Below, in pieces: positions 34-17,003 of a stretch of DNA of 20,097 bases. Every line of letters begins with the position of its first letter. The first letter of the stretch is position 1. The notes beneath the pieces were generated by a model, which was given only the letters and a program-made list of their open reading frames with translations, did not search any database and was not told the origin of the DNA. A program made the translations under genes and the position numbers. The stretch is taken from the IMG/VR virus record IMGVR_UViG_3300035162_001546, positions 1-20,097 of that record; one strand, written 5' to 3'. Source of the stretch: a virus.

Positions 34-230
34 CACAGAGCCTTCTTAATTCTATAGTTTCCAAATACTTGACCATCCAGCAATTCATCCCACATTCCTT
101 CTGGAGATTTTTTTCTTTTATAATCCATCATCTCTTGATGTTTCTTTTCCTTCATCTCTTCACGACTTAGTGGATTTTTCCTTTCTCTAGCACGTTTTCG
201 ACTACGTTGTTCTTCCGTTAGATTTCCCAT
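33..230 (-). CDS. Small basic protein of unknown function (65 aa)
   Basis: A 65-residue, highly charged protein. Residues 8-42 are dominated by Arg, Lys and Glu (RSRKRARERK near the start, then EEMKEKKHQEMMDYKRKK), which suggests a single long charged helix, possibly nucleic-acid binding. The C-terminal third (SPEGMWDELLDGQVFGNYRI) looks more like a small folded patch. I do not recognise the family. The gene overlaps the end of the glycosyltransferase gene by 29 bases and its TGA overlaps the ATG of the exonuclease-like gene, so it is probably translated by coupling. The ribosome binding site is weak (GGATGG about 9 bases upstream). The tight context supports it being real. Confidence 0.6.
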   Translation of the reverse strand: MGNLTEEQRSRKRARERKNPLSREEMKEKKHQEMMDYKRKKSPEGMWDELLDGQVFGNYRIKKAL

Positions 231-1050
231 TTTTTAATACCATCCCATAATTATTAATTTTTTGTGGCACAACTAAACCTTCTCTAAGAATCAATCTGTT
301 TTTCTTAAACGGTTTATAGTTAACGTGGTGATGCCACCTACCAAATTTCCAAGAAACAGTTGCGACATCAGGGTGTTGTTTTTGCAAACTTTCTGCAAAC
401 TCTCGCCTGTTGTCGGTGTCTTCATAAACTTCACCAGTGTTGCCTCCCTTCATCCTCATTGTAGTTACCTTGCCACAGAGGAAAGCATTAAACAAAATTG
501 TGCAATTCCCATCTTTTAGAACTCTTAAACTTAAATCTGTGTCCTCATTATATTTGCCACGCCATTTTTGATGCAAATCATTTTGGATAAGTATGCAGCT
601 ATAAATTCTTGTGTTTAAATAGTACGGTGGCACTCTGTCCGTGTTCTTACAAAAATTATAATAGTTCATCCCACTCAGAGGTACATTTTTATATCGTTCA
701 GTGAAGTCCTCACAACATCTAAAAATAGTTCCGTCTGTGACCTTTGGCTTCATGTTAAAATTTAACCTGTGAAAACCTTCCAAGTTATCATCTACAATCC
801 AGTGCCTCTTGTCGTTGTTTTTAATTGAGTGATCCCACACAAAATTTCGTACTGGTATTGAACCTTGGCCCAAATTAGAAAATGGCGTTACCAATATATT
901 TGCAGAAGGCCACTCGCTTCGATATTCGTTTTCTTCTTGAGGCTCGACAACCAGATAAAATGGAACATTCATTTCTGTTAGCTCTCTGGCAGTTAAACAC
1001 CTTTTTGGTCTGCCTTTGCTAATCACATAAATTGGGTATCTAGGATTCAT
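202..1050 (-). CDS. TET-associated-type glycosyltransferase (TAGT family), predicted DNA base glycosyltransferase
   Basis: A 282-residue protein that I recognise as a member of the TAGT family. This family was defined computationally in phages and in the eukaryotic GREB1 proteins and is predicted to add sugars to hydroxylated bases in DNA. Visible features are the N-terminal YPIYVISKGRP at 5-15 (first strand and nucleotide-sugar site), a VEPQEE segment at 35-40, IVDDN at 85-89 as the DxD-like metal and sugar-nucleotide motif, DFTERY at 115-120, KYNEDTDLSLRVL at 166-178 (a likely acidic catalytic stretch) and MKGGNTGEVYE near 200-210. The length fits a complete single-domain enzyme. It overlaps the preceding 80-aa gene by 11 bases, and similar gene pairs recur in phages as I remember them. 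The substrate base and the sugar donor cannot be read from the sequence. No base hydroxylase or hydroxymethylase lies in the window. Confidence 0.85.
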   Translation of the reverse strand: MNPRYPIYVISKGRPKRCLTARELTEMNVPFYLVVEPQEENEYRSEWPSANILVTPFSNLGQGSIPVRNFVWDHSIKNNDKRHWIVDDNLEGFHRLNFNMKPKVTDGTIFRCCEDFTERYKNVPLSGMNYYNFCKNTDRVPPYYLNTRIYSCILIQNDLHQKWRGKYNEDTDLSLRVLKDGNCTILFNAFLCGKVTTMRMKGGNTGEVYEDTDNRREFAESLQKQHPDVATVSWKFGRWHHHVNYKPFKKNRLILREGLVVPQKINNYGMVLKNGKSNGRTT

Positions 1051-2801: not shown

Positions 2802-2929
2802 TTCTTCTCCTCCTTGTCAGTCATGTTTGTCCCAATGGTCTGGATGTCTTTGCCTAGACCAGCGATTGTATTGCCACAGCCAGAAGTTAGCAGGGTGACA
2901 ATGACAGCAATGATTATCATGTTTATCAT
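2798..2929 (-). CDS. Entericidin-like small lipoprotein (43 aa)
   Basis: A 43-residue reading frame that begins MINMIIIAVIVTLLTSGCGN and continues TIAGLGKDIQTIG before a charged KEEKK tail. The hydrophobic segment ends in TSGC, a lipobox that puts the lipid-modified cysteine at residue 18. The following N-T-x-A-G-x-G-K-D-I-Q-x-x-G pattern is the hallmark of entericidin A/B lipoproteins, bacterial membrane proteins linked to programmed lysis. Its ATG overlaps the TGA of the preceding lipoprotein gene (ATGA), and its own TGA overlaps the ATG of the next gene, so it fills the gap exactly. In a phage it might affect the envelope, but that is speculation. Confidence 0.7.
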   Translation of the reverse strand: MINMIIIAVIVTLLTSGCGNTIAGLGKDIQTIGTNMTDKEEKK

Positions 2930-3225
2930 TTTGTGTCCCCAACTCTGGTTGCAGTTCTTCGTGCAGCCTCAACCAAACTGGATGTCATGCAAGTAACATT
3001 GATTACAATTGGTGTGATGTAATTGTTTACCTTGATCTTGGAGTAGATCATCACTGGGCGAAGGTCTGCCGATCTACACTCTTCAATAGCAGCTATAACT
3101 TCTTGCCGCTCCATCATCTCAACCTGCCTGTTGTGCAAGTTAAGCTCCATGCTTGGTGGCTCCGTGTTGGAGGAGCACCCAGCGAGTGCTGCCCCAGCTA
3201 GTAACGTGGCGAATAGCTTTCTCAT
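2926..3225 (-). CDS. Predicted lipoprotein of unknown function (99 aa)
   Basis: A 99-residue protein with a type II signal peptide: MRK, a hydrophobic run LFATLLAGAALAG and a lipobox ending at Cys17, followed by Ser-Ser, which favours outer-membrane sorting. The mature part contains VEMMERQEVIAAIEEC and a strand-rich segment (PVMIYSKIKVNNYITPIVIN), then a VTC motif. Two further cysteines (in EEC and VTC) could form a disulfide in the periplasm. I do not recognise a family. Its start shares one base with the stop of the 95-aa gene (TAATG) and its stop overlaps the entericidin-like gene. Two adjacent lipoproteins could act together, for instance in envelope alteration or lysis, but no Rz/Rz1 signature is visible. 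Confidence 0.7.
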   Translation of the reverse strand: MRKLFATLLAGAALAGCSSNTEPPSMELNLHNRQVEMMERQEVIAAIEECRSADLRPVMIYSKIKVNNYITPIVINVTCMTSSLVEAARRTATRVGDTK

Positions 3226-3580: not shown

Positions 3581-3790
3581 TTATAAGTGGCTGTCAGGGT
3601 TTGCTAAGAAATAGTCTTCCCGCTGTTTGACCCATCGTTCAGCCTCTGCTTTTGAATCAAATTGAGTGTCAGTGTAAAACACTCCAGCTTGCCAAGATTC
3701 CACCCGCCAATCTCTGAATGTTTTTTCACCACTGGTATAAGTTCCGTGGTTCAGTATTTTAAATTCGATAACTGGTGATAAGTCTGTCAT
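3581..3790 (-). CDS. First gene of the P1 operon, unknown function (69 aa)
   Basis: A 69-residue protein with several aromatic-rich strands (VIEFKILNHGTY, RDWRVESWQAG, VFYTDTQFDSK) and a C-terminal helix AEAERWVKQREDYFL. The layout of strands followed by 'SKAEAERWVKQ' is common in tiny phage proteins of a single antiparallel sheet packed on a helix. No function can be assigned. It is the first gene after promoter P1 and is preceded by the AGAAAGGAATTAAA site at 3795-3805. The first position in a probable early operon is consistent with a regulatory or anti-host role, which is inference only. Confidence 0.65.
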   Translation of the reverse strand: MTDLSPVIEFKILNHGTYTSGEKTFRDWRVESWQAGVFYTDTQFDSKAEAERWVKQREDYFLANPDSHL

Positions 3791-3806
3791 TTTAATTCCT
3801 TTCTAA

Positions 3807-3835
3807 ATTGGAGGAGCCGACTGCCCCTCTCCAAT
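3807..3835 (-). other. Leader hairpin between promoter P1 and the first start codon
   Basis: ATTGGAG (3807-3813) and CTCCAAT (3829-3835) form a 7-bp stem around a 15-base loop that is partly self-complementary. It sits one base away from the AGAAAGGAATT ribosome binding site. The upstream arm lies in the 30-base block shared with the P3 leader. It may control translation or protect the 5' end of the transcript. Confidence 0.5.
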
Positions 3836-3851
3836 AAAGACATTATGCACT
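3822..3851 (-). repeat. 30-base promoter/leader repeat, copy 1 (minus strand)
   Basis: Read on the minus strand this block is identical over 30 bases to 9892-9921 on the plus strand. It contains the -10 box CATAAT, the presumed transcription start and GTCTTTATTGGAGAGGGGCA. Identity stops abruptly at both ends, while the flanking -35 elements and RBSs are similar but not identical. Confidence 0.85.
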
Positions 3852-3870
3852 CTTTCACCAAAGAGGTCAA
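3842..3870 (-). promoter_or_regulatory. Promoter P1, sigma-70 type, minus strand
   Basis: On the minus strand TTGACC (3870-3865) is followed after 17 bases by CATAAT (3847-3842), an excellent sigma-70 arrangement. It lies in the 119-base gap between the methyltransferase gene and the 69-aa gene and points into the latter. It should drive the leftward operon of lipoproteins, nucleotide enzymes and the glycosyltransferase. The -10 hexamer is identical to those of P2 and P3. Confidence 0.75.
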
Positions 3871-3908
3871 GAACTATTTATACTATTATCCTAAGCAATA
3901 CCAATGGC

Positions 3909-4523
3909 TTATGCATAATCTTCTTCTTTCTCTAAAGATTTTCTGCATGGTGGAATCCATATAAGCTTGGGGCTGTTGAACTTAAAATTTTTCTTCCAGA
4001 CAAACCAAGCATAGCTGGTGGCGGTGGATGCCTTCTTATCCAATCGCCCTTTGACCATTGGCACTCGCTCAGAGAATTGAGCAAAATGTGTTGGAGGGTT
4101 GAGATCAAAAAGTCTGTCGTATCTCCCAACGCTTTCTAAAAATACAGTCCTCGCTAAAATTGCCACGCCAGTCGATGCAACTTCATTTGCCTTATTAATA
4201 AATTCTTCTGCTAATCGAAACGGTGGATTAGTAATGACCCAGTTAAAATTCTTGTGAGAGCTGTCCAAAAAATTATTGACCTTGCCATATCCATAATCAT
4301 AAATATCAGAAGATTCCACTTCGTTGAAATACTCCTTCAAAACTTTTGACATATGTCCTTTGTTACAGGCTGGCTCTAAACACCTGCCCTTCGTGTCATT
4401 ATTTAAAACGTGCTCCATCAATGCACGAGTTGCCCACGGTGGTGTTGGGAAATCGTCTAGGCTATCTTTTGCTTCGTGTCTCTGTGCCATTACTGCGTGT
4501 GTTGTGTTTTGTTCAGATGACAT
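3909..4523 (-). CDS. DNA N6-adenine-type methyltransferase (204 aa)
   Basis: A class I S-adenosylmethionine-dependent methyltransferase. DFPTPPWATRALMEHVL at 24-40 is the typical N-terminal lead-in of phage methylases. LEPACNKGHM at 49-58 is motif I (SAM binding), SSDIYDYGYG at 71-80 carries the acidic residue after motif I, and ITNPPF at 97-102 is the catalytic motif IV of amino-methyltransferases. LARTVFLESVGRYDRLF and SYAWFVWKK follow as in related phage enzymes. No separate target-recognition domain or restriction nuclease is visible, so this looks like an orphan methylase that may protect phage DNA or mark replication. The start at 4523 (AGGGGA 11 bases upstream) overlaps the helicase gene by 11 bases. 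An upstream in-frame ATG at 4586 would overlap by 74 and is less likely. Confidence 0.8.
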   Translation of the reverse strand: MSSEQNTTHAVMAQRHEAKDSLDDFPTPPWATRALMEHVLNNDTKGRCLEPACNKGHMSKVLKEYFNEVESSDIYDYGYGKVNNFLDSSHKNFNWVITNPPFRLAEEFINKANEVASTGVAILARTVFLESVGRYDRLFDLNPPTHFAQFSERVPMVKGRLDKKASTATSYAWFVWKKNFKFNSPKLIWIPPCRKSLEKEEDYA

Positions 4524-5976
4524 AATGTCTAAATCCCCTTGGCCTGACGATGAATAAGTTTTCTTTGGCGCGAGTAGCTGCAACATACCAGACCCTATTC
4601 TCTTCGTCGGAGTGCGAGTTCTCCCACGACAGTCTGCCCATGTCAGTTAGCATTACAACATTGTCTGCCTCGCCACCTTTTGATTGGTGGATGGTTGAGA
4701 TTGAGATCCTTGGCTTGTCGCTAAACTTCTCGCCATTCCTCAAGACAGATCTCAGATACTCTCTCTCGTCTGGCGCAATGCCCCTGAGCATGGACATCCA
4801 ATCCTGTTGCCTTGCTGCATCTGGCAGACCGACATCTTCAATGCCGTAGCCCTCTTTTTTCTCTAGCGTTACATTGAACCCAAAAAACTGGATCATGTTC
4901 TTAGTTTCAAAGAGAGAGATGGTGTTGCCCTTGCGGATCTTCTCCCAGCTGATAATTGCACGAGTCTCTTCTGACTCTAGTGAGTGCTTGCCGTTGTATG
5001 AATATGAATAGCCCTGCTGCCTCGCAGATTGTTTTAGTCGATTGAGCATATACTTTGATCTGCTTAGACACATCCACGTTTTCTCACCAGAGAAATCAAT
5101 TTGTTGTTCGTCGGCAATATACTCAACGCTGCCCTCTTCAGTCTTCGCAGACCAAGGCTTGGCGTAACGGTTTTTGATCCTGCCCAAGATGCCCAACGAT
5201 AATTTGTGAATAGATCTTGGGACACGATAGCTCTGGGGCAGAACTCGCTTGTCACCTTTGAGGCTCAAGAACTTATTAACGTCTGCACCAGCCCAACCAA
5301 AGATGGCTTGGTCATCATCTCCAGCAATGTAAACTTCAGTGGCCTCTGATGCTGCAAGTATGGCCATTCGATATTGCAGTGACGAAAGATCCTGAGCCTC
5401 ATCAAAAATACAAACGTCAACTGGCAACGCTGAATTATATTGGTCGAGCATATCAGTGAAATCTAACAGGCCGTTTTCTTTTTTATATTTTTTAAGTGAC
5501 GCACCATATTGGTTTATGGCGTGAAGTGTCAGGTCATTGACGTTGCCAATATTGTATTGGTCTTCAATTGAACGAAGGCCAACTCTGGCCAGAGACTCCA
5601 CTCTTGAACATTTATCTCCAAGGCCATCTCCAGTGTGGAGGCCCAGCTCTTCATCGTAAATGCCCTTGAACTCAATCCCCAGCGCCTTGCCCAGCTTGCG
5701 ATAGTGTGAGTTGTTCATCACCTCGTCACGCTGCAGCTCCAACTGTTTAAATGCTAAAGAGTGGAGCGTCCTGAAAAATGGAAATCTTTTTTCATCAAGG
5801 CCAAATTGTGCCATTGCCCTCTCTTGAGCTTCATTCGCTGCCTTGCGAGTAAAAGCTAGGTATGCGATTCGCTCTGGTGGGATGCCTCTGTTGATTGCAT
5901 CTTCAACTATCTTTAGAAGTGTTGTTGTCTTCCCAGTCCCTGGTGGCCCCAGAATTATCTGAACGTGCCTCATCAT
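4513..5976 (-). CDS. UvrD/PcrA-like superfamily 1 DNA helicase
   Basis: A 487-residue SF1A helicase with all canonical motifs: GPPGTGKTT at 10-18 (Walker A), AYLAFTRKAANEAQERA at 38-54 (Ia), DFTDML at 172-177, CIFDEAQD at 189-196 (Walker B), AGDDDQAIFGWAGAD at 218-232 (III), LPQSYRVPRSI at 246-256 (IV), STIHQSKGGEADNVV at 427-441 (V) and VWYVAATRAKENLFI at 462-476 (VI). It should use ATP to unwind DNA 3' to 5' in replication or recombination. At under 500 residues it is shorter than bacterial UvrD (about 720), with reduced 1B and 2B domains, which is usual for phage forms. The site AGAAAGGAATAA precedes two adjacent ATG codons (5976 and 5973), and either could start. It overlaps the 88-aa gene by 74 bases. 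Confidence 0.93.
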   Translation of the reverse strand: MMRHVQIILGPPGTGKTTTLLKIVEDAINRGIPPERIAYLAFTRKAANEAQERAMAQFGLDEKRFPFFRTLHSLAFKQLELQRDEVMNNSHYRKLGKALGIEFKGIYDEELGLHTGDGLGDKCSRVESLARVGLRSIEDQYNIGNVNDLTLHAINQYGASLKKYKKENGLLDFTDMLDQYNSALPVDVCIFDEAQDLSSLQYRMAILAASEATEVYIAGDDDQAIFGWAGADVNKFLSLKGDKRVLPQSYRVPRSIHKLSLGILGRIKNRYAKPWSAKTEEGSVEYIADEQQIDFSGEKTWMCLSRSKYMLNRLKQSARQQGYSYSYNGKHSLESEETRAIISWEKIRKGNTISLFETKNMIQFFGFNVTLEKKEGYGIEDVGLPDAARQQDWMSMLRGIAPDEREYLRSVLRNGEKFSDKPRISISTIHQSKGGEADNVVMLTDMGRLSWENSHSDEENRVWYVAATRAKENLFIVRPRGFRHYVI

Positions 5977-6169
5977 TTATTCCTTTCTGAATTGCATTGC
6001 CATGCAAGATATATCTAGTTTTTTCTAAGATGTACTCTGCCATCTTAAATTGCTCTGCAGTAAACGAACCCTCTTTCATTAGTGTGTCAATTGTCTTAAC
6101 AAATTTTTCGACGTTTGATTTGCTCGTCTCCGAATAACGCTTATGAATCTTTTCTTCTTCGTTGTCCAT
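5903..6169 (-). CDS. Small protein of unknown function (88 aa)
   Basis: An 88-residue protein. Its acidic N-terminus (MDNEEEKIHKRY) is followed by two helices, NVEKFVKTIDTLMKEG and FTAEQFKMAEYILEKTRYIL, and a polar, probably disordered tail that overlaps the helicase gene by 74 bases. I do not recognise the family. GGAAGTAGAAG just upstream gives a fair ribosome binding site. The position between primase, zinc ribbon and helicase suggests a replication accessory, for example a loader or adaptor, without direct evidence. The AGAAAGGAATAA site of the helicase is inside this gene. Confidence 0.65.
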   Translation of the reverse strand: MDNEEEKIHKRYSETSKSNVEKFVKTIDTLMKEGSFTAEQFKMAEYILEKTRYILHGNAIQKGINDEARSDNSGATRDWEDNNTSKDS

Positions 6170-6275
6170 CTTCTACTTCCTTTTTGCACGAGTCGCAAAT
6201 TATCCTGCCGTCCTTCTGCAAATAGTAGTGAGTTGTCTGGCCGCACCAAGGGCACTCTTTTAATTTATCATCCAT
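6141..6275 (-). CDS. Zinc-ribbon microprotein (44 aa)
   Basis: A 44-codon frame starting MDDKLKECPWCGQTTHYYLQ and ending in a basic, acidic-dotted tail (KKEVEDGQRRRKDS). Two knuckles, CPWCG and ICDSCK, separated by 15 residues, form a classic four-cysteine zinc ribbon. The ATG shares its A with the TAA of the primase gene (TAATG), and the 3' end overlaps the 88-aa gene by 29 bases, so it fills the gap precisely. Zinc ribbons next to primases often contact DNA or RNA polymerase, but a specific role cannot be assigned. Confidence 0.7.
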   Translation of the reverse strand: MDDKLKECPWCGQTTHYYLQKDGRIICDSCKKEVEDGQRRRKDS

Positions 6276-7804
6276 TAAAAATCTTCAGTGACTGAACTTG
6301 GAATATCAAGGTCATCGTCATCATAAAATTGAGGAGCAGGAACTGACCACACTTTAACTGGTTTTGATTTTATGCGAAAGGTTTTTCTGTCACCACCTAT
6401 CGTCCTTAGCCAAGACCAGACTTGATGTTGGGATGGATAGCGGAACCTCCTGCCCTCCAAATATATGAAGAGATCCTCACTCCTGAAATAAACTTTGTCT
6501 TCTTCTGGGTCATGCCAAGGCTTGCCATTCATCAATTCGTCACGGTGTCGAGCCTGAACCTTGCCAGTCAAAAATGAGTCGAGCATCTTCTCGAACTGAC
6601 CTTTTGGTGACGCATCGTCTGGGTCAATGATTACCTCAACAGAGTTTAACAGATCATTGATCCGCTGCTCCCACTGTTGGGCTGGCATTGTGCTGGGGCA
6701 CTTGTTTAGTTTCTCAACACAGATCTTCTGCAGCTGGCGCTGATCTAATAATTGCTGGGTAGTGATCTCAATCCGCTCGCCACCTATGTCAATATACCAT
6801 CTGACAGACTGTTTGTTTTCGGTCTCATATTTTGTGATTGCATCAATCTCAATCGACTGGCCACCCCCAACTCCACCAACGCCAAAATCTCGTTTGATGC
6901 ATTTTGACTTTTCACAGTAATTACAGATTGGGGATTGCTTGCAGGTGTATGCATAATCTTTTTTGCTGACAGACTTCACAAGTCCATTGACCTCACCACT
7001 GGGCAGAGGCTGATCTAAATTATCATAGTTGAAGCGCATGAGATCCTCTTGCCAGTCATCAGGATTTTTCTTGCGGTAGTAGACACCAACATTGAACAGA
7101 GAGATATTTCGTCCACCCTCTGGGAATCCCATTGTCATTATATGTTGGAGGCATGGTGGCCCATCTTCAAAATGTTTTGTCAGCTCTGGTTTGTATTTTT
7201 CCAGCTTATCAAAATTTGTTCTCTTCTTCTCAGCTAAATCTAGGAACTGTTTTAGTGAAAGCTTCTTGCCATTGTGGATTGCATATCGATCACTCTCATC
7301 ACCATCCCAGTAGCATAGGTTAATCCAGTTGCCCCGATCCATCTCATTTGCACGAGAGATCTGCTTTGGAAAAATCTCTACACCACCATAACCAAGGCCA
7401 GCTGCAAACTCATTTAACTTGGCAACCATGTCGATGGCCGCAATTGCTGGCTCGCAAAATAAATACAAGTGTGCGCCACCAGATTTTGATCGACACATGA
7501 CTAGGGGAGTGTCTCTTATTTTCTTCTCTAGCTCTTCTAACGTGTCCTTTAATTTAACTTCGCCACGGATGTCGATGTCGATGCAACCAAAGTTGCAGCT
7601 GTTGTCATCCTTCAGCATTATGATACCAAGAATATATTCTCCACCTTTTAGGTGGTGGCTAAAATTTTTCTCAGTTGCTGGCTCGCTTACTGTTACAGCT
7701 CTGCCCGATAGCTTCCCATCTGCCTCGTGTTTTTGGACACGGTACTGGCCGTGGGCAAGTGAATAGCCTTGGAATAAATCCATAAATCTTTTGGTCTCTG
7801 ACAT
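6275..7804 (-). CDS. Archaeo-eukaryotic-type (AEP/TOTE-like) DNA primase
   Basis: A 509-residue protein whose N-terminal 200 residues carry the AEP primase signature: FGCIDIDIRG at 72-81 with metal-binding D76 and D78, SKSGGAHLYLF at 106-116 with the catalytic His112, and EIFPKQ at 143-148 followed by GNWINLCYW, as in TOTE-type primases. A middle region (PPCLQHIMTMGFPEGGRN at 216-233, SLFNVGVYYRKK) is typical of phage primases of this group. A cysteine cluster follows, C288-x5-C294-x2-C297-x4-C302, then a Gly-rich linker VGGVGGG. The C-terminal 180 residues look like a winged-helix-rich accessory part. No helicase motifs are fused, so the separate UvrD-like helicase is the probable partner. 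It starts at an AGAAAGGAATGAGATG site directly after an intergenic terminator. Confidence 0.85.
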   Translation of the reverse strand: MSETKRFMDLFQGYSLAHGQYRVQKHEADGKLSGRAVTVSEPATEKNFSHHLKGGEYILGIIMLKDDNSCNFGCIDIDIRGEVKLKDTLEELEKKIRDTPLVMCRSKSGGAHLYLFCEPAIAAIDMVAKLNEFAAGLGYGGVEIFPKQISRANEMDRGNWINLCYWDGDESDRYAIHNGKKLSLKQFLDLAEKKRTNFDKLEKYKPELTKHFEDGPPCLQHIMTMGFPEGGRNISLFNVGVYYRKKNPDDWQEDLMRFNYDNLDQPLPSGEVNGLVKSVSKKDYAYTCKQSPICNYCEKSKCIKRDFGVGGVGGGQSIEIDAITKYETENKQSVRWYIDIGGERIEITTQQLLDQRQLQKICVEKLNKCPSTMPAQQWEQRINDLLNSVEVIIDPDDASPKGQFEKMLDSFLTGKVQARHRDELMNGKPWHDPEEDKVYFRSEDLFIYLEGRRFRYPSQHQVWSWLRTIGGDRKTFRIKSKPVKVWSVPAPQFYDDDDLDIPSSVTEDF

Positions 7805-7818
7805 CTCATTCCTTTCTG

Positions 7819-7847
7819 AAAAAAAGAGGGAGGACTGAGCCTCCCTC
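7819..7847 (-). terminator. Rho-independent terminator or attenuator upstream of the primase gene
   Basis: Read on the minus strand, GAGGGAGG (7847-7840), a 6-base loop CTCAGT and CCTCCCTC (7833-7826) form a perfect 8-bp GC-rich stem followed directly by seven T (7825-7819). It lies just after the stop of the acidic-tail protein and just before the primase ribosome binding site. No separate promoter is visible for the primase, so termination is probably partial and sets the ratio of upstream to downstream genes. Confidence 0.85.
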
Positions 7848-7855
7848 CTCCAATC

Positions 7856-8665
7856 TTACATAGTTTCTAGATCTTCTTCATCAGCTTGAGTTTCTGGTGA
7901 AACTTTAACTTCACCTGAACTTACCTGATCTTTGAAGTTTCTTGCTGCAAGATATATGTCGCGGCCAGACTTTAAGTTTTGAATGATACCACCTGAACTT
8001 GCATCAAACAACATCTCAATGTTCCAGCCAAACCAAGATCCCTGATCATTCTCTTCTGGGACTGTAGTCATTTTGTATGCATTCCAAAACATGGCAGGTG
8101 TGAACTTCTTTGTCTCATCAGACGGATGCGGAACCTGCAGCCTGTTGATCATTGAGTTCCAACGCCTAGCCTTCTTCAGTTGGCTCTTGCTCATTGTCAG
8201 CATTGCTGGTGAGAAGCCACCATCATTGTCAACGACATAAACAAAATACTCAGCTGTCGGGACAATCTCATTGCCATCTAAACTCAGGTACTCACCCTTA
8301 GCGCCACGACTGCAGCCCTCAAGGATCCCCGAATCCGATCCGTGGTCACGAACTAAGCCACCACGGTCTGGCTTCCATTCTATGTGGGCACGACGATATG
8401 AGATGGGCACGACTGTTATGCCTTCTTCACCATCAGATGCTTGGCCAGAGACGTTGTCAAAAATATGACCAGGCTCTGCGCCATCAACATAAGCACCATC
8501 ACGTTTGTTTACCTGTGGTGACATTTGCTGGAGCACAGCAAGTCGAGGGATCATAAAATCATCTTGAGTCATGCCCTCCATTCCTGCACCAGCATCAGCC
8601 AGCAGAAGGTCACTATCAAATGTAATCACGTTGTTGTCTTTTTTCTTCGCTATTTGGTTAGCCAT
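7856..8665 (-). CDS. Conserved phage replication-region protein with acidic tail, candidate ssDNA-binding protein (269 aa)
   Basis: A 269-residue protein. The core contains DDFMIPRLAVLQQMSPQVNK, GHIFDNVSG and ITVVPISYRRAHIEWKPDRG, a strand-rich pattern that I recall from marine phage proteins next to recombination and primase genes. It ends in an acidic tail (SPETQADEEDLETM), the feature by which unrelated single-strand DNA-binding proteins recruit partners. A role as ssDNA-binding protein is inferred from this tail and from its place before the primase. It is not proven by a recognisable OB-fold motif. The start at 8665 has AGGAGAGAAAAGA just upstream and overlaps the preceding gene by 8 bases. 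An in-frame upstream ATG at 8719 is less likely. Confidence 0.6.
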   Translation of the reverse strand: MANQIAKKKDNNVITFDSDLLLADAGAGMEGMTQDDFMIPRLAVLQQMSPQVNKRDGAYVDGAEPGHIFDNVSGQASDGEEGITVVPISYRRAHIEWKPDRGGLVRDHGSDSGILEGCSRGAKGEYLSLDGNEIVPTAEYFVYVVDNDGGFSPAMLTMSKSQLKKARRWNSMINRLQVPHPSDETKKFTPAMFWNAYKMTTVPEENDQGSWFGWNIEMLFDASSGGIIQNLKSGRDIYLAARNFKDQVSSGEVKVSPETQADEEDLETM

Positions 8666-9254
8666 TCTTTTCTCTCCTAATTTTAGCTCTACGGCCTGTG
8701 TAAATTTTAAACAGGTCATGTGGGACTTCTTTGCCTTCAGACATCCGCTCCTTGATGTAACTGTTCAAAGATGCTGGGTGTACTCCAACGCTACGTTTGT
8801 AATAAATCTTTCGATCACTCAGCTCTTTTGCAAAAGCATTGCAGTCTTCATCTTCATTACGTCCAAACTGAACCTCAACATTGCTCTTGATTAGGTCACC
8901 CGCTTTGTTATCGCGCAACCACTCAAAGCACTGCTGCTGGCGTATCTCAAGAGTAACTTTGTCATCACCTTTGGCACGATCAATCGCGCTGACAGATGGG
9001 ACAGATCCTGAGATTATGTCGTTAACTTCAACCTTCGAGCCGTTGCTCAAAGTAAAGTCTTTGACATTCAGTTCTTGCATTAGTTCGGGCAAGTCCTGTT
9101 CGGCCAACTTAGTGAGATCCTGCTTCTTTTGCTTCAACAGCTCATCAATGCGATTGATCTCGTTTTCAAGATCAAGCATACGACTTGCCATGTCAGCGAC
9201 TGCACCAATTTCATTGGACGATGGTGCAACGTCCTCAAGCAGATCTAATTCCAT
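8658..9254 (-). CDS. Coiled-coil phage protein of unknown function (198 aa)
   Basis: A 198-residue protein. Residues 20-62 form a predicted coiled coil (MLDLENEINRIDELLKQKKQ and following). There follow short strands (FTLSNGSKVEV), then a mixed region, and a C-terminal part with VGVHPASLNSYIKERMSEGK, DLFKIYTGRRAKI. The combination of 'VHP-x-SL-x-x-Y/F-x-KE' and 'P-x-DLF-x-x-Y/F-x-G' near the end is one I recall from many marine phage proteins of unknown role. It starts at an AAGAAAGGAATAGAAATG site and is co-transcribed with the acidic-tail protein that follows. A role in replication or recombination is suggested by context only. Confidence 0.65.
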   Translation of the reverse strand: MELDLLEDVAPSSNEIGAVADMASRMLDLENEINRIDELLKQKKQDLTKLAEQDLPELMQELNVKDFTLSNGSKVEVNDIISGSVPSVSAIDRAKGDDKVTLEIRQQQCFEWLRDNKAGDLIKSNVEVQFGRNEDEDCNAFAKELSDRKIYYKRSVGVHPASLNSYIKERMSEGKEVPHDLFKIYTGRRAKIRREKNG

Positions 9255-9256
9255 TT

Positions 9257-9619
9257 CTATTCCTTTCTTAATTCAAGGGCCACTGGCATATACCAGCCCT
9301 TACGACGATCTCGTTCTCCGTCTTCCTGATTTCTTTCCCAACGGAGAATTCTCACAGTTGGTGACATCTCACCTGCAATGGCAACGACTACCATGACAGC
9401 GATTGGGTCACCACCCCCAGGCCATAGGATATAATCTTCAGGCCCGAAGTCTTTCATTATTCTTCGAGCTTTTTGGATTGATGGGCCTGGTAAAAATTGA
9501 GGCTTGTCATTCTCCTCAAAGACAACTTCTAATGCACCATAACGAGATGCATCACTAAGGTCAGGTGTCCACCCAAACTTATTTTTTGTCGGTCGATTAA
9601 CTACGAAAACTTTTGGCAT
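9257..9619 (-). CDS. First gene of the P2 operon, unknown function (120 aa)
   Basis: A 120-residue protein beginning MPKVFVVNRPTKNKFGWTPD. It has a strand-turn start, a central YGALEVVFEEND, a short helix IQKARRIMKDFG, a Gly-rich turn DYILWPGGGDPIAVMVVVAI that looks like a buried strand-helix, and VRILRWERNQ near the end. I recall similar proteins (start 'FVVN-x-x-x-H/K-x-Y/F', central 'WPGGGDP') as uncharacterised proteins in marine phages. Function unknown. It is first after promoter P2, about 25 bases downstream of the expected transcript start, and uses TTTAGAAAGGACAG as ribosome binding site. Confidence 0.7.
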   Translation of the reverse strand: MPKVFVVNRPTKNKFGWTPDLSDASRYGALEVVFEENDKPQFLPGPSIQKARRIMKDFGPEDYILWPGGGDPIAVMVVVAIAGEMSPTVRILRWERNQEDGERDRRKGWYMPVALELRKE

Positions 9620-9648
9620 CTTTCTGTCCTTTCTAAATCGTGTTCGAT

Positions 9649-9677
9649 ATTATGAACTAAAAAATATTCAGTGTAAA
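9649..9677 (-). promoter_or_regulatory. Promoter P2, sigma-70 type, minus strand
   Basis: On the minus strand TTTACA (9677-9672) and CATAAT (9654-9649) are separated by 17 bases, and the region upstream is AT-rich (A/T tracts at 9680-9725 acting as a possible UP element). It points into the 120-aa gene and the replication module. The -10 box is identical to those of P1 and P3. Confidence 0.75.
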
Positions 9678-9679
9678 CC

Positions 9680-9872
9680 AAAAACCTATGTATAAGAGAA
9701 TATTTGAGAAAAAAAATAAAGTTTTTCAAAATCACTTTTTGCGGTAACACGGTAACGGAAACGCTGTATCCCTTTGTGGGTAAGGGTTTGAGGCCGTTCC
9801 TCTTCTCGACTTTAGTGGGTGAGCCGTTCCCCTTGTTTGGTTACATCGTTGTTATTATTAAAGAATTAGGGG
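9680..9872. other. Noncoding region between divergent promoters P2 and P3
   Basis: About 190 bases with no credible gene. The left part is A/T-rich with an A8 tract. The right part carries GGTAAC twice in GGTAACACGGTAACGG, and an imperfect direct repeat in which GTGGGTAAGGGTTTGAGGCC GTTCCTCTT is echoed by GTGGGTGAGCC GTTCCCCTT about 40 bases later. Divergent promoters around such repeats suggest a regulator binding site or a replication origin. Neither is proven. Confidence 0.5.
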
Positions 9873-9901
9873 TTGACTCTATATGAGGTATAGTGCATAA
9901 T
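9873..9901 (+). promoter_or_regulatory. Promoter P3, sigma-70 type, plus strand
   Basis: TTGACT (9873-9878), 17 bases, then CATAAT (9896-9901). It points to the cluster of tiny plus-strand genes and starts a leader of about 45 bases. From 9892 to 9921 it is identical to the P1 region on the opposite strand. Confidence 0.8.
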
Positions 9902-9921
9902 GTCTTTATTGGAGAGGGGCA
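9892..9921 (+). repeat. 30-base promoter/leader repeat, copy 2 (plus strand)
   Basis: Identical to the minus-strand reading of 3822-3851. It covers the -10 box, transcript start and the first GGAGAGGGGCA arm of the leader hairpin. Its placement in both operons on opposite strands about 6 kb apart suggests a shared regulator or shared 5' RNA element rather than chance. Confidence 0.85.
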
Positions 9922-9930
9922 CACGCCCTC
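9914..9930 (+). other. Leader hairpin downstream of P3
   Basis: GAGGG (9914-9918) pairs with CCCTC (9926-9930), extended by C9920-G9925 across one bulged G, closing an ACAC loop. It ends four bases before TTTAGAAAGGA, the ribosome binding site of the first gene. The position mirrors the hairpin downstream of P1, although the base pairing differs. Confidence 0.55.
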
Positions 9931-9953
9931 CTCATTTAGAAAGGAAACAAAAA

Positions 9954-10286
9954 ATGCAAAAATTAATTCCAACAACCGATTTATTCGCTAACTATTGTGG
10001 GTACTCAGATGTCCACCCATATGAGATCACTCGCATCGTTTCTGAAAAGTGCATCGAAGTCCGCGCAATGGACACTAGCAAACAGAAAACAAAATTAGAT
10101 TTTCATGTCGGTGGTTTCTCCGCTCACTGCTCTAATCAGCACGATCAAAAATATGATTACACTTCAAATGCTCAAAACAGTGTTCAAAGAATTCGCCTTC
10201 GCAAAAACGGTGGGTGGATGAATAAATATGATCAACGCTTCAGTATCGCAAAAGCGCCACATAAATTTTACGACTACAACTTTTAG
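9954..10286 (+). CDS. First gene of the P3 cluster, unknown function (110 aa)
   Basis: A 110-residue protein, probably all beta. Features are the N-terminal TTDLFANYCGYSDVHPYEIT, then CIEVRAMDT, a FSAHCSNQHDQKYDY stretch, IRLRKNGGWM and a C-terminal FYDYNF. The pattern of 'CGYSDVHPYEI', 'GGFSAHCSNQHDQ', 'RLRKNGGW' and terminal 'FYDYNF' resembles a widespread but uncharacterised family that I recall from phages and bacteria. Function unknown. The ATG at 9954 is chosen because TTTAGAAAGGAAAC lies directly upstream. An in-frame ATG at 9900 falls within the -10 box of P3 and cannot be the start on that transcript. Confidence 0.75.
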   Translation: MQKLIPTTDLFANYCGYSDVHPYEITRIVSEKCIEVRAMDTSKQKTKLDFHVGGFSAHCSNQHDQKYDYTSNAQNSVQRIRLRKNGGWMNKYDQRFSIAKAPHKFYDYNF

Positions 10287-10295
10287 GTTTACAAC

Positions 10296-10313
10296 GGGGA
10301 GCTTCGGCTCCCC
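10296..10313 (+). other. Stable UUCG-loop hairpin between two P3 genes
   Basis: GGGGAGC (10296-10302), TTCG, GCTCCCC (10307-10313): a perfect 7-bp stem closed by C(UUCG)G, the extra-stable tetraloop. It is followed not by a T run but by ACCATTTAGAAAGGAAT, the next ribosome binding site. It is more likely a transcript-stabilising or processing element than a terminator. Confidence 0.75.
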
Positions 10314-10337: not shown

Positions 10338-10529
10338 ATGTCACTTTTAGCCTATTACACTAAAGTTGCGAAGCGCAAGTCAGATGCCGCACTTGCTTTT
10401 GCCGTTGCCGACATCAAAGCGGCATGGGCATCTAACCCAGAATTTGAGGCTGGGGTTACTGAGTACAGTAAAAGTCTGTGGGCAGAGTGGGATGCCTACG
10501 TTGTTGAAATTCAAAAAAGAAAAATATAA
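10338..10529 (+). CDS. Small helical protein of unknown function (63 aa)
   Basis: A 63-residue protein that is almost entirely helical (YYTKVAKRKSDAALAFAVAD, then IKAAWASNPEF and a final LWAEWDAYVVEIQKRK). It has three tryptophans and a basic C-terminus. No family is recognised. The start follows TTTAGAAAGGAATTTAAATT, the recurrent site of this genome, right after the UUCG hairpin. The stop is immediately followed by the ATG of the next gene, implying coupled translation. Confidence 0.65.
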   Translation: MSLLAYYTKVAKRKSDAALAFAVADIKAAWASNPEFEAGVTEYSKSLWAEWDAYVVEIQKRKI

Positions 10530-11393: not shown

Positions 11394-11480
11394 TTGCTAG
11401 CTCGTTGTAACAGATGTAGATTGTCTCGACTTTCAAGCATAAGGCATACCTCAAGCAACTTACCCCTCCCTAAAACTTAG
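11394..11480 (+). CDS. Possible microprotein with TTG start (28 aa)
   Basis: A 28-codon frame that would start at TTG and read (M)LARCNRCRLSRLSSIRHTSS before NLPLPKT. GAGAGGGGAGTGGTGAG lies just upstream, it follows the previous stop closely, and it ends one base before the terminator stem. It contains a CNRC knuckle and many basic residues. Against it are the non-ATG start and tiny size, so it may be only the untranslated 3' part of the transcript. Confidence 0.25.
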   Translation: MLARCNRCRLSRLSSIRHTSSNLPLPKT

Positions 11481-11503
11481 CCCTCGAAAGAGGGTTTCTT
11501 TTT
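11481..11503 (+). terminator. Rho-independent terminator of the P3 cluster
   Basis: CCCTC (11481-11485), GAAA tetraloop, GAGGG (11490-11494), then TTTCTTTTT (11495-11503). The stem can be extended by a G-T and an A-T pair. It separates the small-gene cluster from the packaging genes. Confidence 0.9.
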
Positions 11504-16829: not shown

Positions 16830-17003
16830 ATGGCAAAACGCCCTGGATTATATGCAAATATCGCTGCAAAGAAGAAACGAATAGCCGCTGGCTCTGGTGA
16901 GAAAATGCGTAAGAAGGGAGCCAAAGGTGCGCCAGACAAAGGTGTATTCAAAAAGATTAAAGCCTCTGAGAAGAAGAAGAAGAAGAAGAAGAAAAAAGGA
17001 TAA
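16830..17003 (+). CDS. Lysine-rich microprotein 2 with oligolysine tail (57 aa)
   Basis: A 57-codon frame starting MAKRPGLYANIAAKKKRIAA and continuing GSGEKMRKKGAKGAPDKGVF, then KKIKASE, nine lysines and Gly. 'MAKRPGLYANI-x-A-K-x-x-RI-x-AGSGEKMRKPG' is another small phage family that I recall from the same neighbourhood in marine phages, of unknown role. The C-terminus is encoded by seven AAG codons and two AAA codons (16971-16997), a microsatellite-like run prone to length changes. The ATG directly follows the previous TAA. Confidence 0.75.
   Translation: MAKRPGLYANIAAKKKRIAAGSGEKMRKKGAKGAPDKGVFKKIKASEKKKKKKKKKG

Follow-up and report, generated by a model that had tools for sequence, protein, structure and literature searches.

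Two inverted copies of a 30-base promoter and leader block in a phage related to Roseobacter phages as the probable core of an exchangeable start module

The window analysed in this work is the whole stretch of 20,097 bases of phage DNA, and the record behind it comprises solely this 20-kb fragment. The window is a piece of a Caudoviricetes phage that is kin to the Roseobacter phages CRP-901/902 (78% for TerL), and the near-identity search of the window against phage records gave no match. Two copies of a 30-base block are located on opposite strands at both sides of the replication module, which raises the question of why the same promoter and leader sequence is present at two sets of genes. 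The features of both copies and their surroundings are listed below.

3822 to 3851, minus strand: block copy 1, with the -10 element, the predicted start (about 3835) and the 5' arm of a hairpin
9892 to 9921, plus strand: block copy 2, with the predicted start at about 9908
3842 to 3870, minus strand: P_L2, leftward core promoter TTGACC-17-CATAAT, σ70-type by sequence
9873 to 9901, plus strand: P_R, rightward core promoter TTGACT-17-CATAAT, σ70-type by sequence
9649 to 9677, minus strand: P_L1 at the start of the replication module, TTTACA-17-CATAAT (promoter-like), with a short leader that has neither hairpin nor block; the internal comparison
3807 to 3835, minus strand: predicted 5'-terminal hairpin of the P_L2 transcript, AUUGGAG.GGG...CUCCUCCAAU (-12.8 kcal/mol, z -1.8), whose stem takes in the first base
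9912 to 9933, plus strand: predicted leader hairpin of the P_R transcript, GAG.GGGGC-ACAC-GCCCU.CUC (-12.7 kcal/mol, z -2.2)
3797 to 3804, minus strand: Shine-Dalgarno AGAAAGGA of the P_L2 leader, preceding the ATG at 3790
9938 to 9945, plus strand: Shine-Dalgarno AGAAAGGA of the P_R leader, preceding the ATG at 9954
3790 to 3581, minus strand: first gene after P_L2 (ATG at 3790), a 69-aa ORF with no PHROG or Pfam match
9954, plus strand: ATG of the first gene after P_R, for a 110-aa protein (phrog_19789, no assigned function)
4513 to 9619, minus strand: replication module with Pam3 gp32/33/34-like proteins, primase and helicase, located between the outward promoters P_R and P_L2

The identity that had been predicted was confirmed by direct reading, where the minus strand from 3851 to 3822 and the plus strand from 9892 to 9921 both read AGTGCATAATGTCTTTATTGGAGAGGGGCA (30/30). 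The two -35 boxes (TTGACC and TTGACT), the 17-base spacers and the AGAAAGGA sites are also as the original prediction had described. The 28-base core with up to three mismatches occurs at these two places alone in the window and does not occur in 100 shuffles. The pattern TTGACN-17-CATAAT has exactly two sites in the window, P_R and P_L2, against 0.04 expected. The similarity of the copies reaches further, with 76% over 62 bases (3790-3851 and 9892-9953) up to the start codons; the 30-base block thus forms the identical core within a longer stretch of similar leader sequence.

A search of relatives for the block, which had been suggested with the original prediction, was also performed. The exact block was not found in viral_contigs beyond the window, and it appears to be restricted to one lineage. 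The leader is present in viral_contigs in one other record only, and the P_R core by itself was found there only in L010 and L011 (L189 is the contig of L011). The degenerate leader pattern search returned L087, which has the paired arrangement, and chance matches that mostly lack the hairpin.

P_R and P_L2, both bearing the block, flank the replication module and face outward. P_R precedes small rightward genes that are followed by terS and TerL. P_L2 is located directly after the DNA methyltransferase gene and heads a leftward gene set that includes polynucleotide-kinase-like, dATP/dGTP diphosphohydrolase-like and TET-associated glycosyltransferase genes. The leftward replication module begins at P_L1 (9677-9649). 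Promoter-like matches overall number 33 in the window, where 32.6 are expected by chance, so the reading of P_R and P_L2 as promoters, both putatively active, rests on their context and on the relatives.

Both transcripts open with AUUGGAGAGGGGC, given a predicted start about 7 nt past the -10 element. Each block leader folds into one hairpin only, and both hairpins are modest when taken singly (z -2.2 and -1.8). Their stems finish 2-4 nt ahead of AGAAAGGA. A related Rhodobacteraceae genome (SB2) contains the 16S-tail pattern CACCTCCTTTCT, and AGAAAGGA is complementary to the end of this pattern. Neither block hairpin is on the terminator-like listing for the window, and the Rfam search of the window gave no match.

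We propose, with a probability of roughly 0.6, that the promoter and its 5'-terminal-hairpin leader constitute an exchangeable module that has been recurrently copied between P_R and P_L2, with the hairpin protecting or insulating the early mRNA. The block would be the core of a host-σ70-type early promoter together with the start of the mRNA leader, of which the first ~25 nt would fold as a hairpin 2-8 nt ahead of a full-strength ribosome-binding site. The phage group would employ this leader as a start module (promoter core, optional 5' hairpin and ribosome site) whose two places, P_R and P_L2, are fixed, and the module would be copied or recombined between them. RppH/RNase E-type attack on the mRNA 5' end may be hindered by the hairpin, which may also keep the ribosome site open whichever gene follows, and the module would let new first genes be acquired with a working start.

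It has been reported that a 5' hairpin guards some E. coli mRNAs by hindering attack at the 5' end, and such stabilising stem-loops include those of ompA and papA and synthetic 5' hairpins (PMC3997798). From this protection we infer the function of the phage leader hairpin, which probably protects or insulates the early mRNA. Both kinds of hairpin are located at or a few nt from the mRNA 5' end (here predicted) and upstream of an open ribosome site. However, the phage hairpin belongs to a promoter unit shared between operons, and its stabilising role is proposed by analogy.

The comparison with relatives comprised ~170 related loci, where most of the contigs are fragments. The distance from the -10 element to AGAAAGGA is bimodal in relatives (8-20 nt, or mostly 28-39 nt), and an early leader there either is very short or has a hairpin. 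Non-redundant long leaders numbered 32, and 19 of them are more stably folded than their own shuffles (p<=0.05), which is an excess with a binomial probability of 3.5e-17 against 5%, and of 8e-7 against the 19.5% obtained for ribosome sites that have no promoter. In 18 of these 19 leaders the stem begins 6-11 nt past the -10 element, the 5' end being predicted, and the stems of relatives end 2-8 nt ahead of the ribosome site. Most of the significant hairpins have no U-run (at most three T in the next 8 nt for 16/19).

The same leader anatomy recurs with stem sequences that are largely unrelated across lineages, and the hairpin is absent in many relatives. The variable leaders and unrelated stems indicate that the hairpin is an optional insert between the start and the ribosome site. 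Single leaders gave too few sequences for covariation; an informal comparison in one P_R set exhibits a C-G to U-A change (L078 against L065). L010 and L011 (TerL 97%) have the P_R core of the window joined straight to AGAAAGGA, with no hairpin and a different first gene. L169 and L170 have a related hairpin leader on the first rightward gene of the window, under a different promoter. The hairpin leader thus moves separately from the promoter.

Gene order served to assign P_R and P_L2 in 20 representative genomes, which were picked by eye to drop near-duplicates, and the promoter calls were algorithmic. The synteny-anchored P_R/P_L2 pairs of the same genome have a score of 11.25, whereas permuted pairs reach 7.19 +/- 0.56 (p=5e-5). 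This result is unchanged without the window, and p=9e-4 is obtained without the window, L087, L165 and L021. When all ribosome-site leaders of a genome are ranked by their match to P_R, P_L2 comes first in 12/19 genomes (p=5e-5), and this ranking controls for base composition. The similarity of P_L2 to P_L1 is not raised (p=0.27, n=12). A slight increase is seen between P_R and P_L1 (7.7 against 6.0, n=12), which may come from their common intergenic region.

The sequences shared within genomes differ by lineage. The sister genome L087 (primase 91%) has two hairpin leaders on opposite strands with ATAATTTTTTTATTGGAG common to both, and this sequence is absent in the window. L021 and L113 both have 23 nt, AAGAGAGATAATAGCTGTGTTGG, common to their own P_R and P_L2. 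L121 has AAGAGAGATAATAGCTGTGTTGG at both positions with one difference, where one copy has begun diverging, so identity is not strictly maintained. L117 has one 24-nt core at three promoters, and L165 has a 33-nt near-identical stretch at P_R and P_L2 from -35 to about -3. The likeness between P_R and P_L2 scarcely goes past the consensus in most relatives. This and the many relatives without the hairpin indicate that neither feature is obligatory.

These other pairings in related phages point to a start signal that has been repeatedly copied between two fixed genome positions, where it would probably serve the early mRNA as an exchangeable start-and-protect leader. The sharing is taken to come from copying or recombination rather than from convergence. 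The copied promoter cassette that the original prediction had put forward is well supported, given the sharing of P_R and P_L2 within genomes, the differences between lineages and the movement of the leader apart from the promoter. As a separate observation, L152 has tandem rightward promoters (5120 and 5588, minus strand) that are largely alike over 44 nt between -35 and the ribosome site, which would be a further duplication of a start module inside one genome.

The original prediction had also named a shared activator or repressor. This part was not borne out, with no dyad excess over shuffles, identity dispensable in most relatives and no regulator gene identified in the window. Co-regulation in the wider sense, where one factor (a phage regulator, a modified RNA polymerase or discriminator-based initiation control) keeps both promoters alike, is rather doubtful. 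The sharing peaks in the segment between 8 nt ahead of the -10 element and ~+1, and it recurs with lineage-specific sequences as expected of co-evolution with a changing factor; P_L1 does not share the segment with P_L2. The excess falls largely within the 7 nt that follow the -10 element (0.61 against 0.36, with two P_L2 calls replaced by hand for this positional analysis), and it is smaller in the 8 nt before the -10 element and in the first transcribed bases and absent in the 5' half of the spacer. Sharing centred on the -10 element and discriminator makes common control of initiation possible, and selection for common initiation behaviour would also yield the excess in the 7 nt.

However, different stretches are shared in different lineages, the L121 copies diverge, and dyads in the P_R and P_L2 spacers are at chance level (5% of each below p=0.05). 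For the dyad of P_L2, CTCTTTGGTGAAAGAG, p=0.037 was obtained; P_R does not contain this dyad. A tentative variant, which we hold to be a possible but minor candidate, is that the two divergent early promoters co-evolve, where the -10 element, the discriminator and the first transcribed bases would be repeatedly homogenised under a common factor or timing constraint, with the exchangeable 5'-terminal hairpin in the unit.

In phage lambda (nutL/nutR) and HK022 (putL/putR), similar leader RNA elements are located on two opposite-strand early transcripts; no two-hairpin put structure is seen in the predicted folds of the window leaders. The leader RNA of the window could likewise be an antitermination signal of the nut/put type for opposite-strand operons with terminators downstream. 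Three further sites are listed below, of which the first two are terminator-like.

11479 to 11496, plus strand: site resembling an intrinsic terminator, after the rightward early genes and before terS
7829 to 7848, minus strand: strong terminator-like hairpin with a T-run, just upstream of the primase-gene AGAAAGGA and separate from the block
10296 to 10313, plus strand: internal hairpin GGGGAGC-UUCG-GCUCCCC; the AGAAAGGA that serves the gene at 10338 is downstream of it

The terminator-like sites downstream of P_R and in the left module, and the occurrence of one leader hairpin in both early transcripts of opposite strands, agree with antitermination. However, the element is a lone short hairpin with the ribosome site directly after it, it has no Rfam match, many relatives do without it, and the stems are unrelated between lineages; antitermination is accordingly very unlikely. 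Inversion of the 6-kb replication module by recombination at the two copies agrees with their inverted orientation exactly at the flanks of the module and with both promoters facing outward, but it is highly improbable, since 67/67 loci have a single arrangement with primase and TerL on opposite strands and no recombinase was seen beside the copies. An assembly artefact or chance repeat, to which the start of the 14.6-kb contig L007 (identical TerL) inside the hairpin leader could point, is just as improbable given zero shuffle matches, independent contigs (L010/L011) that carry the P_R core with their own flanks and the paired arrangement in L087.

The copied start module was also compared with the promoter early stem-loop (PeSL) cassettes of T4-type phages, which were reportedly described by Arbiol et al. 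in 2010 and by Comeau et al. in 2014, the latter under a title with the words 'promoter-terminator motifs'. As cited in PMC4503421, PeSL cassettes pair early promoters with stem-loops and have been connected with modular shuffling. Both systems have a small σ70-type early promoter adjoining a stem-loop, although the window promoters are so assigned by sequence. PeSL units recur in one genome at module borders, where they may mediate exchange, and the window group likewise has recurrence at places of gene exchange, with first genes that differ between L010 and the window. However, PeSL stem-loops are described as terminators and occur at many places, whereas the stem here begins at the predicted start, mostly has no U-run, is followed by a ribosome site and occupies two fixed positions. 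PeSL would be the nearest known analogue, and the window leader is not placed among PeSL cassettes because the stem-loops here are not terminators.

The phages of this group are related to phages that infect abundant marine Roseobacter lineages. Promoters and hairpins are not mentioned in the paper describing CRP-901/902, and gene control in this phage group appears unstudied so far. A 5'-hairpin start module copied between operons would, if true, show how lytic phages admit new early genes with expression kept. The pairing within genomes is a direct route to asking whether phage promoters evolve in concert, and the group-wide leader and pairing patterns are more useful than the exact block itself.

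Several minor observations were also made. L007 starts within the hairpin leader (L007 1-25), and the upstream context possibly varies there in the population. A hairpin ahead of the primase gene, as at 7829-7848 of the window and possibly an attenuator of the replication operon, is also found in relatives (e.g. L087 3029 and L092 2516). The TET-associated glycosyltransferase (202-1050, minus strand; Pfam TAGT 4e-47, phrog_842) has a single distant homologue among the fetched relatives, and its gene suggests hypermodified bases in the phage DNA. The leftward operon also contains a small lipoprotein-like ORF (2926-3225, minus strand; MRKLFATLLAGAALAGCSS) with homologues of 45-57% in relatives (e.g. 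L087 and L141). A short ORF at 16970-17003 (plus strand) terminates in about ten lysine codons, with GAA/AAG low-complexity repeats close by.
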